NCBI RefSeq assembly: GCF_029626025.1 | Contig: NZ_JARUBF010000001.1 | Span: forward strand, 5,860,001 to 5,924,000 | DNA length: 64,000 nt | Source of the DNA: Solwaraspora sp. WMMD406 | GTDB taxonomy: Bacteria > Actinomycetota > Actinomycetes > Mycobacteriales > Micromonosporaceae | Reading direction: 5' to 3' | In this document: in pieces, positions 21,251 to 31,394 of the stretch | Position numbering within the stretch: the first letter of the stretch is position 1 | How the letters are laid out: every line of letters starts with the position of its first letter | Program-made: the position numbers and the translations under genes | The notes under the pieces: generated by a model | The model's input: the letters and a program-made list of their open reading frames with translations, nothing else | Database searches by the model: none | Told to the model about the DNA's origin: nothing

Positions 21251-21456
21251 GAGACTAGCCGGTTCGGGGACGATGAGTGGGCTTAGTGACACACAACACG
21301 GGGGCGGGTCATCCTCCGCTGGGCGTTTCCGTTACGTTCACCATCGTCGGCTGTGTGCACGTCAATCGCCCAGGGTGGACGCGACGGCGGCACTCGCGGA
21401 CACTATGCCGGAGCTTCCAGGACCATCAATCGCCGATACCTGTTGAGGGCGTGACC

Positions 21457-23524
21457 ATGACCGAGCCAATCCTGGTGGTCGATGTCGGCACGTCGGGCAC
21501 CCGGGTGGCGCTGGTCGTCGGTGACCAGACGACCCTGGTCAAGGAACCGGCCAGCGGCGCCGCCAGTTGGCCGTCGTCGGTCTGCCTGGCCGACGACGGC
21601 TTCCTCGTCGGCACCCCAGCCGAAGTGCGCAAACGAGCGATCCCCCGACGCTACATCGACGGCCCCCGGCGGGCGGTCGACGCCCAGGCGTCGATGTGGC
21701 TGGAACATCGCGAGGTGACCGGGGTCGAGGCGCTCTCCGCCTACCTCACCGTGATCGGGGCGGAGACCCGGCAACTCTACGGTGGACCGGTCGATCGGCT
21801 GACGCTGACCGTACCCGCGGAGTATCTGCCCGGGGACCCCCGCCGGGACGCGATGATCGCGATCGGCGAGGCGACCGGCTTCCGCGACGTGGAACTGCTC
21901 CCCGCCACCGTCGCCATCGCACTGGACCCACTGACCGACGGTGACCTGCCGGCCGGCGCGCTGGTGCTGGTCTGCGACCTCGGCGCCACCTGGACGACGG
22001 CCGTGGTCCAGGTGTACGGCAGCCACTCGGTGCAACTGGCGCAGCAGACCTGCGCCGCCGGCCGGGAACTCGACGCACTGCTCATCAACGACCTGCGTAC
22101 CGAGGGCCGGTCCTGGCTGGAGCCGATGCTGGCCGCCCCCGGCGACGCCGGACTACGGGCCTACTACGAGGCGATCGACTTCACCCGCCGGCTCAAACAC
22201 CAGCTCGTCGACACCGAGGAGGTCGTCGACCATCTCACCCCGCTGACCCCGCCGTACCGACTGACCCGTGGCTGGCTGGACGCGTTCGCCGAACCGGCGC
22301 TGCGGTGGCTGGTCGACAGCGCCCAGGACGTGCTGGCCACAGTCGGCGCCTCCCCGGCGGACATCACCGCCGTGATGGTGGCCGGCGGCGGGGCGTATCT
22401 GCCGGCGGTGCACCCGACGTTGCAGGCCGGACTCGGGTTCAGCGGCACCGGCGGTGAACGCACCGACCCGCTGCGGCGCGGTCCGGAGCCGGAACTCGCC
22501 GTGCTGCGCGGTGCCGCCCGGTTCGCCGCCGGGGCGGCCGGCCGGGTCATCGTCGCCGAGCCGCCCCGCTGGCGGGTCGAGCCGACGACCTGGGAGGTCC
22601 CGGGCGGCCGGGCCCGGCTGCTGCGCTGGTGCGTGCCGCCGGGCGAGCCCTACCCGGCGGGGGCGGTGCTGGCCCACGTACGGACTCCCGACGAGCGGGT
22701 CTTCGAGCTCACCGCCGCCCAGCACGGCCGCCAGCTCGGGCAGCAGTCCGCCCCCGGTGACCTGGTCGGGCCGGTGCTGGTGGTGGCCAGCGCCAAGGAC
22801 GCGTTGGCTCTGCAGCGCCAGCCGCCACCCCGGCGGCGGCACCTGGAGTCGACCGGCTCGTGGCTGCTCAGCCCGGACCGGCTCAACCTCGTCGAGTGCG
22901 ACCGGTCCGCCCGCGTCGTACGGCTGCGGGCGATCGCCGACGACACCGTGCTCGCCGAGTTCCGGCCCGACCACGGCACCAGTCAGGACTCCCGGGGCCG
23001 GGTGTTCATCGACCCGGACGGACGGTTGTCAGTCGTCGCCTGGGACACCGAGGGCTTCGTCTCGGTGTGGGACATCGAGACCGGCAAGCTCACCGCCCGC
23101 TTCCGGGATCCCGGTGAGCCGCATCGGCTGCTGGTCGACGAAAACCGGTGGCAGGCCGCCGTCGAAGGGCGGGGCAGGGCCGTCGGACGGTACCGGCGGA
23201 CCGTCACCACCCTGTGGGACCTGCGCGGCGGCACCCGCGTCGACCGGATCACCGACGACAACTGGCACCAGCGGATGCCGGAGTTCGCCGAGCACAGCCG
23301 GGCGGAAGGACTGGCGACCGCCGGTACCAGCCCGGACGGGCAGTTGCGGGCGGGCGTGGTGGCCGGGATGGACGGCATCGCCGCGATCGTGCTGCACGAC
23401 GCGTCGACCGGTCAGGAACTGTTCCGGGTGCTGGGCGGGACCGGGCAACGGGTCCGGGTCGGGTTCAGCGCCGACAGCCGGCACCTGCTGGCCAACTGGG
23501 AATCGGACGAGCGGAGCCTGATCG

Positions 23525-23541
<17 letters not shown>
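21457..23541 (+). CDS. Hsp70-like protein fused to a C-terminal beta-propeller domain
   Basis: 694 residues. Residues 1-365 follow the actin/Hsp70 ATPase fold: VVDVGTSGTRVAL (phosphate 1), VCDLGATWTTAVV (phosphate 2) and VMVAGGGAYLPAV (adenosine). The phosphate-2 loop has lost the canonical DLGGGTxD, so ATP turnover is doubtful. Residues about 370-470 resemble the matching segment of the next gene. Residues 480-694 carry WD-like blades (VSVWDIETGKL, TTLWDLRGGTR, IDVWDV). No peptide-binding SBD is recognisable. ATG 21457 is chosen (GTG 21451 also possible). It overlaps the next Hsp70-like gene. Confidence 0.8.
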
Positions 23542-24880
<1,339 letters not shown>

Positions 24881-24946: not shown

Positions 24947-25774
24947 TCAGCGTCGTCGTGGGGCGGTGAGCAGCCGGAACAGCGCCAGCCACTGCTCCGG
25001 CCAGAGCTCACCGGCCAAGGCCCCCGGCGGTATCCGGGTCGCCCGGACCGCCGCCGCGACCCGTTGCGCCGGATAGGCCCGCCGCAGCGATGCCGCCACC
25101 GAACCGCCGACACCGCCGAAGCCGATCTCCACCAGCCGCCGGTAGGCCGGTATCGACTGGGCCGGTAGCAACGGCACCGGGCGGCGGTCCAACCGCAGGA
25201 TGCCCGAGGCAACCCGGGGCACCGGCCGAAACGCGGTCGGTGGGATCCGTCCGGCGAGCCGCCATTGGAATGACGGCCAGGTGCACACCGTGAGCAGGCT
25301 CCACCGGCCGTAGTCGCCGGTGCGTTTGCGGGCGTACTCCAGCTGTGTCACCAGGGTCGCGGACCGCAGTCCGGGCGCGTGCAGGCACCAGTCGACGATC
25401 GGCGCGGTCGCCGCGTACGGGATGTTGCCGACCACCGCGAACGGGTCGGCCGGCGGCTCGGCGGTCAGGAAGTCGGCGTGCACGGGTGTCACGTTCGGCA
25501 GGTCGCGGCACCGGCCGGTCAATTTACGGAACAGGTCAGGATCGATCTCGTACGCAAGCAGCCGGTCGCCGCGCCGGACCAGCCGGCCCGCCAGCGCCCG
25601 GGTGAGCTGCCCGGTGCCGGCGCCGATCTCGACGACGAGCTGCCCGGGGATCGGACGGGCGGCCTGGACCACCTGGTCGATCGCGGTCCGGTCGTGCAGG
25701 AAGGTCTGGGAGGACACCCGGCGGGTTCGGTCCTCGGCGCTGCGGGCGGGGTCTCGAGGCGGGTGATGTGCCAC
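24947..25774 (-). CDS. ErmE-like 23S rRNA (adenine-N6) methyltransferase
   Basis: SAM-dependent methylation of A2058 in 23S rRNA, giving macrolide-lincosamide-streptogramin resistance, usually self-protection in producers. About 275 residues from GTG 25774. Signatures: SSQTFLHD (family SQNFL), VEIGAGTGQLT (SAM motif I), YEIDPDL (motif II), VVGNIPYAATAPI (the NIPY catalytic motif IV) and a C-terminal helical domain ending in WPEQWLALFRLL. The start is uncertain, since the frame is open to 25900 and no strong RBS is visible. No leader peptide or macrolide cluster is adjacent. Confidence 0.88.
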   Translation of the reverse strand: MAHHPPRDPARSAEDRTRRVSSQTFLHDRTAIDQVVQAARPIPGQLVVEIGAGTGQLTRALAGRLVRRGDRLLAYEIDPDLFRKLTGRCRDLPNVTPVHADFLTAEPPADPFAVVGNIPYAATAPIVDWCLHAPGLRSATLVTQLEYARKRTGDYGRWSLLTVCTWPSFQWRLAGRIPPTAFRPVPRVASGILRLDRRPVPLLPAQSIPAYRRLVEIGFGGVGGSVAASLRRAYPAQRVAAAVRATRIPPGALAGELWPEQWLALFRLLTAPRRR

Positions 25775-26245
25775 GGTCGGATCCAGTCTGCCGATCGGCG
25801 AGCGGCCGGATCGGCGGTACGCGGACCGGTGCCATCGACGGCGGATCCGGTCCAGGTGAGCAGGACTCGGACCGCCCTGGCCGGGCAGGTGTGTCGGCAC
25901 GTCGCGGTGCGGACGGACAGACCTCGGCAGTGACCCGCCGGGCAGGCGGGTGTGCGGGGCTGAACTCGATCAGACGCGCGATACGTGCTGGCCCACGGCC
26001 AGGGCGGGACGCCGGGCACGCGGGCGGGCCACCAGCAGCGGACCCCACGCGCCGGGCGTACCGGCGGCGCGGATCAGGGCGTGGAACGTGGCTGACACGA
26101 GGTGCACGATAGCCAGCCGGTCGGCAGCCGACAACCTGTTTTCCGCACGCCGCCGGGCGGCTCGACGCGCCGACTGCACGCGCCGGTACGGGGACCAGCC
26201 GGTGTCGTCGCGGCCCGTACCCTGCTGCGGCCGTGACCCGCCGCT
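25775..26245. other. Intergenic region upstream of the Erm gene
   Basis: 471 bp with no supported gene. A 97-codon frame on the minus strand (25970-26263) contains a plausible helical stretch (AADRLAIVHLVSATFHALIRAAG). It has an Arg-rich start and end and no clear RBS, so I leave it uncalled. The region must hold promoters for the Erm gene and the rightward gene. Confidence 0.5.
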
Positions 26246-28480
26246 GTGCCTCGACGTTGTCAACGCGTGCGAGCCGACGATTCAACAGGATCCGCCGAGG
26301 CGACCTCATTGTCCGCCAAGGCGACCTCCGACCCGACCGGAACACCGGCCGGACCACCGGCCGGGCCACCAGGCGAGCCACCAACCGGGTCACCAGGCGG
26401 GCCACCAGGCGAGCCACCAACCGGGTCACCGGCCGGCGAACTCGACCCAGCCAAGCCGCCCGTGCCGAAACTCCCGTCGACGGTCCGGTTGGGTGCCCCG
26501 ACCGACCGCTACTACGACCGGCTTGTCCGGTTGGCGTACCTGGTCATGGCTGACGCCACCGAGGCACCGGCCGGCGCCGGTACGCGGCGGCCGGCCAGGC
26601 CGCACGGGGTGATCCGGGCGCACCGCATCGTCCGTCGATCGCTGCCCTGGCGTCCGCTGGACGACGCGGGCCAGCTGTGGATGCTCGCCCGGGTGATCCG
26701 CCGGGCGAGTCGGCCGCGCCGGTTCACCCCTCCGGTGTTCCAGCACTGGGGCCGGCCGATCCGATCGGGTCACGACCCGGAGTGGGACCGGCTGTTCGCC
26801 GCGCTCGCCACCTTGCCGGCACCGGTCCGCGCCGGATATCTCCTGCTGGTGGTGGAACAGCTTTCGCCACGGGACGCGATCCTGGTGCTGCACGAAGCGG
26901 GTTGGCCGGACGCGGTGGTCCAGGTCGCGGCCGGTGCCGCCGAGCGACAGCGGCTGGCCGACACGGAAGGGCTTTCCCCGGACCGGCAGCGGGCATTGCT
27001 CACCGGGCCGGTCACCGACCCGATGACGGTCCGGCTGCAGGCACCTGACCTGCGGACGTTGCGGCTGGTACGGGCGCTTCGGTTGACCGGGGCGGCGGGG
27101 GCGGCGCTGGTGGTGGCGGCCGTGTCCGCAGCGGTCCTCCCTGGTTTGCCGGACTTCCCGCCCTCCTCCGGTCCGGCCGGCGACGACCCAGCCGGACCGG
27201 TCGTGGCAGAGGTACGGCGGGTCGGCGAGCAGGCCTGGACCGGCTCGGCGGCGCTGACCCTGGCTTCGTGGCCGACCCGTGGTTCCCGCCTCGACGACCC
27301 AGGACTGGTCGAGGCGGCGGTGGACGCCTGGCTCGGGCTGGCGGCGATGACCTTGGCGGATCCGGCGACGTCGACGGCGGCGTACGGTGCCCGGGGCGGC
27401 GGCGGGGATCCGGACGCCGCGCCGGCCGGTGTGGCGGTGGCCACCGATGCCGGGATGGTCACCGCGACCGGCAGCGAGGGGGTCGGGTTGGCCGCGCCGG
27501 TCGGCGGGGCGCAACTGCTGTACGTCGGGGACCTCCCGGAGGGATCGGCGCCGGAGCCCGGCGGGTCCGCGCCGGAGCCGGACGTGCTCGTGGTGCTGGC
27601 CGACGCCACCCGGATCGCGGTGTACCGGCAGGCCGGGCGGTCGCGGTCGCTGCGGATCGAACCGGCGCCCGCCGCGCATCCGTCGACCAGCAGCGCGATC
27701 CGGTTGACCGGTTCGGACGGCACCGCCCGCTACCTGGTCGCGCCGTGGGTGACGGCGGTGGAGTCCCGGGCGTTGAGCGGCGACGACTGGGTCCCGCTGC
27801 CGGTCGGGGCGACCGGGCTGACGGATCCGGCTCCCGCCGGCCCGGACGGTTGCTGGTCCGGCCCGGTGCTGCGGGTGCTCGGCGACGAGATCGCGGGCGG
27901 TCGGGGGGCGACCCTGGCCGATCTGGGCAGGACGGCGCTGACCTGGCTGGCGTACCTGCCGCCCGGCGCGCATCCGGGGCGTGCACCGGAAAACGCCGAC
28001 GCGCCCGGTGGTGGCGCGGTCTGGGCCCGGCTCGGCTGCCTCACCGGTGAACTCGCCGCGCACACCCCACGTTCGGTGCTTGCCTGGGAGGTCTGGTCCG
28101 GGTCCCTGCCGGGAGCCAGCGATCCGGTACGGCTGGTCTGTCTGCGGGCGGAGTTGCCGCAGGACGCCAGCATGGTGGCGGCGGTCCTGCTGGCCGCCGG
28201 ACCACCGGCGCGGGCGGTCGCGACCGCCGCCGACACCCGCTCGTGCAGTTCACGTGCCCCGGCGGTGGTGGTCGGCTGGTGGTGGGAGTCGTCCGACGGT
28301 GCCTGGCACCATGTCGCGGTCGGCGGCGGACCGGTCGCCGAAATCGAGGTACGCGTCAGCGACCAGACGATGCGGGGAGCCGGTCTGCTCGTCTCGCCGG
28401 CGTACCCGGACGGTCCGGTGGGACCGGTGCGGATCGGTGGCACCGACGCGGCCGGCCGACCGGTGCCGGTGCTCGGCTGA
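26246..28480 (+). CDS. Large single-TM protein with a sigma-factor-like N-terminal region
   Basis: 744 residues from GTG 26246 (GTG 26267 also possible), with no named family. Residues 25-75 are Pro/Gly repeats (GPPGEPPTGSP) encoded by repeated DNA. Residues about 85-270 resemble a degenerate ECF sigma factor: YYDRLVRLAYLVMAD (region 2-like), then LPAPVRAGYLLLVVEQLSPRD (region 4-like helix-turn-helix entry). A TM helix is at about 283-303, and a ~430-residue Ala/Gly-rich, beta-rich domain would lie outside the membrane. I infer a membrane-bound regulator or anti-sigma-type sensor; this is speculative. Confidence 0.7.
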   Translation: MPRRCQRVRADDSTGSAEATSLSAKATSDPTGTPAGPPAGPPGEPPTGSPGGPPGEPPTGSPAGELDPAKPPVPKLPSTVRLGAPTDRYYDRLVRLAYLVMADATEAPAGAGTRRPARPHGVIRAHRIVRRSLPWRPLDDAGQLWMLARVIRRASRPRRFTPPVFQHWGRPIRSGHDPEWDRLFAALATLPAPVRAGYLLLVVEQLSPRDAILVLHEAGWPDAVVQVAAGAAERQRLADTEGLSPDRQRALLTGPVTDPMTVRLQAPDLRTLRLVRALRLTGAAGAALVVAAVSAAVLPGLPDFPPSSGPAGDDPAGPVVAEVRRVGEQAWTGSAALTLASWPTRGSRLDDPGLVEAAVDAWLGLAAMTLADPATSTAAYGARGGGGDPDAAPAGVAVATDAGMVTATGSEGVGLAAPVGGAQLLYVGDLPEGSAPEPGGSAPEPDVLVVLADATRIAVYRQAGRSRSLRIEPAPAAHPSTSSAIRLTGSDGTARYLVAPWVTAVESRALSGDDWVPLPVGATGLTDPAPAGPDGCWSGPVLRVLGDEIAGGRGATLADLGRTALTWLAYLPPGAHPGRAPENADAPGGGAVWARLGCLTGELAAHTPRSVLAWEVWSGSLPGASDPVRLVCLRAELPQDASMVAAVLLAAGPPARAVATAADTRSCSSRAPAVVVGWWWESSDGAWHHVAVGGGPVAEIEVRVSDQTMRGAGLLVSPAYPDGPVGPVRIGGTDAAGRPVPVLG

Positions 28481-30565: not shown

Positions 30566-30931
30566 GTGAACGGTCCGCTCGGCACCGTGGTCATCGTTCT
30601 CGCCCTGGCCGTCGCCGGGTGGGCGTTGCTGTGCGCGGCGTTGCGTCGGTCACCGGGCTGGATCCAGTTCCTCGGTCTCGCTGTCGTCGAAGCCGCCCTG
30701 GTGGTCCTGCTGGTCGCCGTCGGCGTGGCACTCGTCGGCGGTGAGCGGCCCGGCGACGCGGCGGTGTTCGCCGGATATCTGATCACCACGCTCAGCCTGC
30801 CGCCGATGGCTGCCGTGCTGGGCCGGATGGAACCGACCCGCTGGGGTTCGCTGACCATCGGTGTCTTCTGTCTGGTGATCCCGGTGCTGGTGGTACGGCT
30901 GCAGCAAACGTGGACGGTGGCCGGTGGCTGA
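30566..30931 (+). CDS. Small four-helix membrane protein
   Basis: 121 residues, GTG start, four predicted membrane helices and almost no extramembrane loops. No named family recognised. It overlaps the next membrane-protein gene by 8 bp, so the two are probably co-translated and may act together. Confidence 0.75.
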   Translation: MNGPLGTVVIVLALAVAGWALLCAALRRSPGWIQFLGLAVVEAALVVLLVAVGVALVGGERPGDAAVFAGYLITTLSLPPMAAVLGRMEPTRWGSLTIGVFCLVIPVLVVRLQQTWTVAGG

Positions 30932-31394
30932 GCAGCGCAGACAGACCGGGACGGCCGGGGCCGCCCGGACCGGACGTACCCGCAGCGGACCCGGGCGGGT
31001 GCTGATCGGGGTCTACCTCCTGTTCGCCATCGCCGCGTCGTCGCGGGCCGGGGTACAGATCGCCACCAGGTTCGACGAGGCCCCGGTGGCGTACCTGCTG
31101 TCGGCGTTCGCCGCCGTGGTCTACCTGGTCGCGGCGGCCGGCCTGATCCGCGACGGCCGGACCGGTCGGCGGATCGCGTACGTCTGCTGCACCGTGGAAC
31201 TCGTCGGGGTGCTGGCGATCGGGGCGGCGAGCATCGCCGTGCCGGCCGCGTTCCCGGACGAGACGGTGTGGTCCGGTTTCGGCAGCGGGTACGGCTACAT
31301 CCCGCTGGTGCTGCCGGTGATCGGGCTGCTGTGGCTGCGCCGTACCCGGGCCGGAGGCGCCGACGCCCCGGATCAGCTCGCGCCGACGTCGTAG
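30924..31394 (+). CDS. Small four-helix membrane protein, partner of the preceding gene
   Basis: 156 residues. A basic N-terminus (residues 1-25) precedes four predicted helices, and the last ends in WLRRTRAGG. Function unknown. Its 3' end overlaps the convergent GH13 gene by 22 bp (31373-31394), so any termination must occur inside the neighbouring coding sequence. Confidence 0.75.
   Translation: MAEQRRQTGTAGAARTGRTRSGPGRVLIGVYLLFAIAASSRAGVQIATRFDEAPVAYLLSAFAAVVYLVAAAGLIRDGRTGRRIAYVCCTVELVGVLAIGAASIAVPAAFPDETVWSGFGSGYGYIPLVLPVIGLLWLRRTRAGGADAPDQLAPTS

Follow-up and report, generated by a model that had tools for sequence, protein, structure and literature searches.

Layout of the gene and its protein family

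The window analysed here, a 64-kb stretch of DNA from Solwaraspora sp. WMMD406, carries on its forward strand a gene for a predicted single-pass membrane protein whose cytosolic part resembles a sigma factor of the extracytoplasmic function (ECF) type. The original prediction placed this open reading frame (ORF) at 26246–28480 (+), which amounts to 744 aa. The frame is open as described, but translation probably starts at the GTG codon at 26267, so that the coding sequence spans 26267–28480 (+) and encodes 737 aa. We prefer this start because a conserved promoter-like element lies just upstream, with its -10-like CGTT box 8 nt before the GTG. In same-genus relatives, protein conservation starts around this codon, and position 26246 falls inside the conserved element. 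The gene is present in a single copy in its own 7.16-Mb genome.

The protein begins with a disordered, low-complexity tail rich in Pro, Gly, Ser and Thr (26267–26485, +), in which nearly all of residues 1–78 have a predicted local distance difference test (pLDDT) score below 50; this tail of ~70 residues differs in length among relatives. A predicted ECF-type sigma2-linker-sigma4 fold follows at residues 76–234, comprising sigma2-like helices (residues 76–94, 113–125 and 133–148; 26492–26710, +) and a sigma4-like four-helix unit (residues 171–234; 26777–26968, +). The motifs that had been singled out as resembling the entry to sigma region 2, YYDRLVRLAYLVMAD, and region 4, LPAPVRAGYLLLVVEQLSPRD, are present at 26510–26554 and 26813–26875, respectively. 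A single transmembrane (TM) helix (residues 262–290; 27050–27136, +), evident from hydropathy and helical in the AlphaFold (AF2) model, leads to an ectodomain of ~420 aa (27212–28477, +) that is beta-rich in the model, contains exactly 4 Cys and shows conserved W, C and G columns. Five K/R residues lie before the membrane segment and none after it, which places the N-terminus inside; a second, marginal hydrophobic window occurs at residue 178, within the sigma4 region. The earlier description of one TM helix followed by an exported domain is thus borne out by profile and structure tests, hydropathy and K/R bias.

The same layout recurs across the 24 family members examined. The other 23 also have one strong TM segment, K/R residues before it equal or outnumber those after it in all 24 (they are equal in the member at locus L059), the ectodomain has exactly 4 Cys in 23, and 14 of the 24 are devoid of Cys before the membrane. 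The exception in Cys content, L056 (L056:6719–7354), is a member that ends right after the TM helix and consists of the sigma-like domain and its anchor, without the ectodomain.

The gene is not a one-off but belongs to a real family, which we found by stepwise profiles starting from the window protein. Relatives occur in 7 of 61 close genomes, including its own (two with short, weak matches only), and sporadically in the taxonomic family of the window (14 of 354 genomes, its own included, one weak). Seven named contigs also carry them, belonging to Micromonospora pattaloongensis, two Phytohabitans, one entry filed as Micromonospora sp., Nonomuraea soli and two Streptomyces. The profile matched 70 of 394 genomes of the class, a count that includes weak matches to true ECFs or other proteins, and, within a single genus, g88, 98 of the 101 genomes sampled, in some of these through partial matches only. 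From gene content and the named relatives, we infer that g88 is Streptomyces. Partial relatives were found in 2 of 72,556 plasmid records, both from Streptomyces and annotated as hypothetical proteins. Among the titles and abstracts of literature on degenerate or membrane ECF-like families, none describes this family, which at the level of titles and abstracts does not establish its absence from print.

The sigma-like domain and its altered contact surfaces

The proposal that the cytosolic part is a degenerate ECF sigma domain is upheld by profile-profile alignment with controls, by AF2 models and by structural ranking with VIA-align. When the cytosolic domains of 13 family members were compared by hhalign with 13 ECFs of the same genome, the match had 95.2% probability (P 2.7e-8) over 119 columns running from sigma2 into sigma4; with 24 members against the 13 ECFs, the probability was 93.7%. 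The controls were clean, with 0.1–0.2% for LuxR-type response regulators and 0.1% for both the ectodomain and the reversed alignment, while none of 150 column-shuffled alignments exceeded 20% and the top-scoring one reached 0.9% (score 17.7 vs 50.5 for the real alignment). On the basis of these shuffles, reversal, response regulators and ectodomain, we ruled out chance similarity as the source of the hhalign match.

Conventional searches gave fainter signals. An ECF-only hidden Markov model (HMM) built from the ECFs of this genome matched 2 of 31 distinct members scanned (L097 at E 2.6e-6 and L151 at 0.0066) and did not match the window protein at an E limit of 0.01. As a single-sequence query of the genome contigs, the window protein retrieved no relatives. 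Among 13 members, the Pfam model PhyR_sigma-like weakly matched three (best E 0.0013) and Sigma70_r4_2 one (E 0.044), the NCBIfam PhyR-family model weakly matched four (best E 0.04), and two NCBIfam sigma-factor models matched one member each (E 0.0015 and 0.028). Curated cut-offs were reached in none of the seven members shown with scores (Pfam and NCBIfam) and in none of L096–L098 (Pfam). Weak PDB ubiquitin matches of the window protein and a viral fusion-protein Pfam match of L059 (E 0.00029, below cut-off) were taken as chance.

The sigma2/sigma4 fold anticipated in the original prediction does appear in the AF2 models, which were built on 8 sequences (mean pLDDT 72.8 for the full-length protein and 78.5 for the domain) and contain three helices of sigma2 type, a linker that is predicted weakly and a sigma4-like unit that is predicted with confidence (pLDDT mostly ~90 or above); by eye, region 2.4 looks shortened. 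VIA-align, which re-ranks Foldseek's own list, placed SigW, SigW and SigJ at the top for the whole protein (Z 10.2, 9.9 and 8.2). For the domain alone, rows 1–27 of 50 were sigma factors, PhyR, or initiation-complex chains taken as sigma, and the first unrelated row had Z 4.7. Z values of individual matches were 10.4 for SigW-RsiW, 10.4 for RpoE-NepR, 8.9 for PhyR-NepR (4qic) and 6.8 for PhyR (3n0r). The assignment of the sigma2-like helices draws on AF2, hhalign and the charge comparison given below, and that of the sigma4-like unit on its pLDDT, its VIA-align matches to SigW, SigJ, RpoE and PhyR, and charges.

The likeness might in principle be accidental, with an unrelated helical cytosolic domain carrying sigma-like motifs by chance, as the lack of any above-cut-off sigma match in the window protein or in relatives shown with scores and the non-significance of Foldseek alone could suggest. 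We consider this very improbable in view of the hhalign P value and clean controls, the match of the ECF-only HMM to L097, and the structural ranking by VIA-align, which puts sigma factors first; moreover, in the reverse direction, true ECFs are retrieved with the family profile at E values of about 1e-6 to 3e-3. Degenerate sigma-like proteins akin to the cytosolic domain were also observed at L129–L135 in the family f27, with E about 1e-17 to 1e-20, although the E-values of L129–L146 are not independent, as these loci were obtained through family-profile matches. The f27 domains stand alone or carry a hydrophobic segment and a different tail, and no ECF-type ORF was found near these proteins at the loci checked (L193–L195 and L198).

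In sigma factors, the region 2.2 helix contacts core RNA polymerase and the sigma4 recognition helix contacts -35 DNA. In the region 2.2 helix, the mean net charge is +3.33 (-1 to 7) in 24 family members vs -0.92 (-4 to 1) in the 13 ECFs, and in the recognition helix it is -0.83 (-4 to 3) vs +2.85 (2 to 4); both differences have p about 2e-6, which is only indicative because the sequences are related. The window protein itself has +5 in its region 2.2 equivalent, which is basic rather than acidic, and -1 in its recognition-helix equivalent. The region 2.2 signature we searched for was found in 1 of 24 members vs 8 of 13 ECFs. The motif HxxxCxxC, characteristic of the ZAS (zinc-binding anti-sigma) zinc finger, occurs in none of the 24. 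Elsewhere in the same genome, L085 (G000:C1, near 5623081) encodes an ECF sigma factor with this motif (HIESCSTC) and, by eye, a hydrophobic segment, possibly of ECF48/53-like type.

The ratio of nonsynonymous to synonymous changes (pN/pS) in the sigma-like part was 0.16–0.56 over 8 pairs, in the range of purifying selection, so that the domain is no relic in decay. The ectodomain could be compared in 7 pairs (L052/L056 was left out, as L056 is without an ectodomain); in 6 of these, pN/pS of the sigma-like part was no higher than that of the ectodomain, and the seventh gave 0.36 vs 0.33. Thus, the sigma-like domain is under purifying selection while the helices that would face RNA polymerase and the -35 element have, on average, lost their normal charge.

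A selected sigma domain could be a latent, working sigma factor, in which a protease cut near the membrane would free the cytosolic part to bind RNA polymerase, perhaps at its own GTGACC-N15/16-CGTT promoter (autoregulation). A latent, protease-released sigma of this kind has been proposed for ECF48/52/53, and the order of parts here (ECF, TM, outer domain) is that of ECF52/53 (PMC8999054 and PMC5826349). The purifying selection and the ECF-type promoter upstream of the gene are compatible with this scenario as well, but the average loss of both the acidic 2.2 helix and the basic recognition helix, the 2.2 signature in a single member of 24 compared with 8 of 13 ECFs, the missing HxxxCxxC and the shortened-looking region 2.4 all speak against it, making it unlikely in our estimation.

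The upstream promoter and the gene neighbourhood

Upstream of the gene lies an ECF-type promoter-like element, GTGACC-N16-CGTT (26233–26258, +), consisting of a -35-like box at 26233–26238 and a -10-like box at 26255–26258. The general form GTGACC-N15/16-CGTT resembles ECF promoters. We assessed its conservation in 45 rows, namely 16 early members and 29 class loci (L100–L128), for the latter of which the 250-nt upstream stretch was measured from the start of the profile match and not from the start codon; L099 (the window again), the repeat places L092–L095 and later loci were not counted. The strict form was present upstream in 32 of 45 rows, in several genera, vs 0.1 expected from Markov shuffles, and in 0 of 45 on the reverse strand, and a loose form in 37 of 45 vs 0.35 expected. 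By group, the strict form was found in 4/4 rows of the window's genus, 4/5 of g61 and 24/26 of g88. It was absent from three f31 and two g59 rows, L012, L059 and L096–L098; L012, L059, L097, L098 and the fifth g61 row carry the loose form.

Whole-genome scans of ten g88 genomes at exact spacing, three of which are also among the 45 rows, located the site before the family gene in 10/10, as confirmed in 9 by the ORF downstream and in 1 by position. In 8/10, the site also precedes an ABC-transporter ATPase gene (7 by ORF, 1 by identical site sequence). These genomes contained 49 pattern sites vs 5 in the backwards control, and 18 of the 49 belong to the family gene or the ABC gene. Around position 1500 of the g88 loci L188, L191, L202, L206, L208, L222 and L226, the sequence GTGACCGATC...TCGTT precedes the ABC-transporter ATPase gene. 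The listed start lies 9 nt after CGTT in 7 of 9 g88 family ORFs checked, and this distance varies in g61. In the window's own genome, GTGACC-N15-19-GTTGTC occurs at 18 sites vs 2 in the backwards control, and among these only the site at the window gene is, by eye relative to the listed ORF starts, in a promoter-like position.

As its own promoter is of ECF type, the gene probably belongs to an ECF regulon. According to PMC6767563, GTGACC is also found in some sigma-E target sites of S. coelicolor, where it is combined with different -10 boxes, for example CGTCTG. The motif letters have no match in the searchable portion of PMC9205884, and none of the titles and abstracts on the promoter motif or the BldN consensus describes this family, a level of coverage at which absence from print is not established.

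We searched for ECF-type genes with the ECF-only HMM (E ≤0.01) over 702,056 bases in 42 loci, five of which (L008, L092–L095) are repeats. No ECF-type ORF was detected in the window or in L008–L012, and on this ground we rejected the idea that, in the genus of the window, a sigma partner is encoded next to the gene. ECF-type genes were found at all five g61 loci (L052–L056) and at L096, L147 and L196. The linked sigma and anti-sigma genes that the original prediction had suggested looking for are accordingly only partly in evidence: the 64-kb window holds no ECF-type sigma gene, but a ShbA/RsdA pair precedes the family gene in three g61 genomes. In L053, L054 and L055, a ShbA-type sigma gene (NF007230, above cut-off), an RsdA-type anti-sigma gene (PF16751, E 8e-9 to 2e-8, above cut-off) and the family gene follow one another on one strand. 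The sigma gene overlaps at its end with the anti-sigma gene, and between the latter and the start of the family gene there are 53, 64 and 47 nt, respectively; the family gene retains its own promoter-like site behind the pair. Such a pair beside the gene was seen only in one lineage, g61, and anti-sigma genes were not searched for at other loci. We take this gene order, confined to one lineage, as a lead towards a partnership between the family protein and ShbA/RsdA. Because of it, we slightly raised our confidence that the domain acts as a sigma mimic and slightly lowered that in a scaffold role.

In the latter case, the former sigma domain would serve outside transcription, for example as a scaffold that sits beneath a surface receptor and gathers partners from the cytosol or the envelope, and the promoter would reflect membership in an ECF regulon only. 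Such a role would accommodate the loss of both the nucleic-acid- and RNA polymerase-facing surfaces, the lack of ECF-type genes near the gene at most loci scanned, and a gene order that varies, by eye, between lineages. It fits poorly with the persistence of sigma-like features across both domains, with the position of the gene behind a sigma and anti-sigma pair at three g61 loci, and with a distant split version that couples the ectodomain to an ECF of working type; we hold it to be rather doubtful.

The split version is found at L145/L196, in one distant genome, where a SigE-family ECF gene (TIGR02983, above cut-off) and the gene that follows it overlap; the second gene codes for a TM segment plus an ectodomain relative (HMM E 1.2e-6; no Pfam match in L145). 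This locus was chosen through its ectodomain match, so that the neighbouring sigma gene was not selected for. This one case suggests an origin of the family in a sigma gene combined with the gene for its membrane sensor. Separately, in one g88 genome, a diverged ECF-type gene (L147:8482–9177, +) lies next to the family gene in divergent orientation; it matches the SigE-family model at E 8.8e-18, below cut-off, and Sigma70_r4_2 above cut-off.

A proposed signalling role and the flanking genes

As a rule, ECF sigma factors are bound by anti-sigma factors that are separate proteins of the membrane. For the family described here, computation shows a predicted sigma2/sigma4 fold with homology to ECFs, a single TM helix preceded by a cytosolic N-terminus, an ectodomain with 4 Cys and an ECF-type upstream promoter. 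The explanation we favour, tentatively, ahead of a re-purposed scaffold and then of a releasable true sigma, is a receptor that spans the membrane once and in which a former ECF sigma domain, on the cytosolic side, has become a sigma mimic, a PhyR-like decoy, for which the fold is well supported and the mechanism is what we infer. An outside signal felt by the ectodomain would alter the display of the sigma-like domain on the inner membrane face, where this domain would bind a partner of real sigmas (an anti-sigma, or a sigma itself) instead of RNA polymerase. An ECF regulon could then be switched by titration, as PhyR does with NepR, with the ShbA-type sigma and RsdA-type anti-sigma as the candidate partner pair suggested by gene order in one lineage, and the place of the gene itself in an ECF regulon would close a feedback loop.

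The proposed mimic can be set beside several known arrangements. In PMC8103513, the sigma-like domain of PhyR is described as having a correct ECF structure with degenerated promoter- and core-contacting regions and as titrating an anti-sigma factor; the family shares with it an ECF-like sigma2-sigma4 domain in which the RNA polymerase- and DNA-contacting regions have degenerated. PhyR structures are among the VIA-align matches, and PhyR_sigma-like is the best sigma-type Pfam match of the relatives, below cut-off. However, PhyR has a receiver domain and is gated by phosphorylation, whereas no Pfam receiver match was found in the window protein or 12 other members, which have a TM helix and ectodomain instead; gating here would be through these parts.

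The original prediction regarded a membrane-tethered sigma-like protein as an unusual design. Membrane ECFs are in fact known: PMC8999054, which also describes separate membrane anti-sigma factors as the usual means of holding ECF sigmas, reports that in ECF48/52/53 the ECF is fused with TM parts and a zinc-finger anti-sigma part. What is unusual here is the missing zinc finger together with the degraded RNA polymerase- and DNA-facing surfaces. As with ECF48, ECF52 and ECF53 (e.g., SCO4117), an actinobacterial ECF domain, TM and outer parts are joined in one chain (PMC8999054 and PMC5826349), the C-terminal extension with one TM helix and an ectodomain being the shared feature. In contrast, those groups are described with a zinc-finger segment, and SCO4117 has a recognised ECF domain, whereas the family here has no above-cut-off sigma match; membership in ECF48/52/53 was rejected on the absence of HxxxCxxC from all 24 members. 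Of the features of functional ECFs, the sigma2 and sigma4 fold is present by prediction, and a curated match and the acidic 2.2 and basic recognition helices are lacking. In outline, the family resembles PhyR or ECF52, but it is without the receiver domain of the former and the zinc finger and intact sigma surfaces of the latter. The L145/L196 arrangement likewise places an ectodomain relative after a SigE-family ECF gene, but as two genes with a working-type sigma and not as one fused chain with a degenerate one, and ShbA and RsdA, although adjacent on the same strand in L053–L055, are separate proteins next to the family gene in one lineage only.

Several observations weigh against the sigma-like fold or against the mimic interpretation. 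Taken singly, the window protein matches no Pfam or NCBIfam model, and Foldseek by itself gives nothing significant (best sigma match E 0.087 for the full-length protein and 0.5 for the domain). VIA-align Z values of ~10 are below the ~13 that the tool deems safe for helical bundles, and sigma2 is modelled less confidently than sigma4 in models that rest on 8 sequences. The charge ranges of members and ECFs overlap, with -1 in region 2.2 of L152 and +3 in the recognition helix of L150, and the 13 ECFs used for comparison were drawn from one genome; charge loss is, furthermore, an indirect argument, as divergent contacts may be tolerated by some genuine sigma factors. In the three f31 and two g59 rows, no promoter element was detected. 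No ECF-type gene lies near the gene in the window, in the loci of its genus, or in g9, the linked ShbA/RsdA pair is present in 3 of 5 g61 loci only, the candidate partners are pointed to only by gene order in one lineage, and among four distant ectodomain matches (L141, L142, L143 and L145), only L145 has an ECF gene among its listed ORFs.

A conserved receptor with a sigma-shaped, apparently non-transcribing domain would add a different route from envelope signals to transcription, and many uncharacterised actinobacterial genes would gain a testable function, for which the promoter and the ShbA/RsdA neighbours offer immediate handles. The protein may be an overlooked signalling receptor, with relatives retained in many actinobacteria. 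A broader claim, which we find less likely than the receptor itself, is that of a near-universal TM sigma mimic of one large actinobacterial genus, signalling to an ECF regulon through sigma or anti-sigma binding at the membrane, with the ShbA/RsdA-type pair as first candidate, and sharing its ECF-type promoter, the basis of the feedback loop, with the ABC-transporter ATPase gene. If true, this would represent a one-component, kinase-free form of PhyR-like partner switching.

The flanking genes in the window vary among relatives. Upstream, at 21277–24880 (+), lie two adjacent Hsp70-like genes encoding 754 aa (with a weak WD40-like match at the end) and 451 aa, which by eye occupy the same place in L009–L011 and not in L012 or the other listed loci. 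Between this pair and the sigma-like gene is a Ribosomal RNA adenine dimethylase family gene (24947–25900, -; PF00398, E 1.1e-50), which comes and goes, being seen by eye beside the sigma-like gene in L011 and L012 and not listed in L009 and L010. Downstream, at 30566–31394 (+), two small hydrophobic proteins of 121 and 156 aa with no Pfam match are encoded, and by eye this pair is also located downstream of the family gene in L009–L012 and in the g61 loci L052 and L056.

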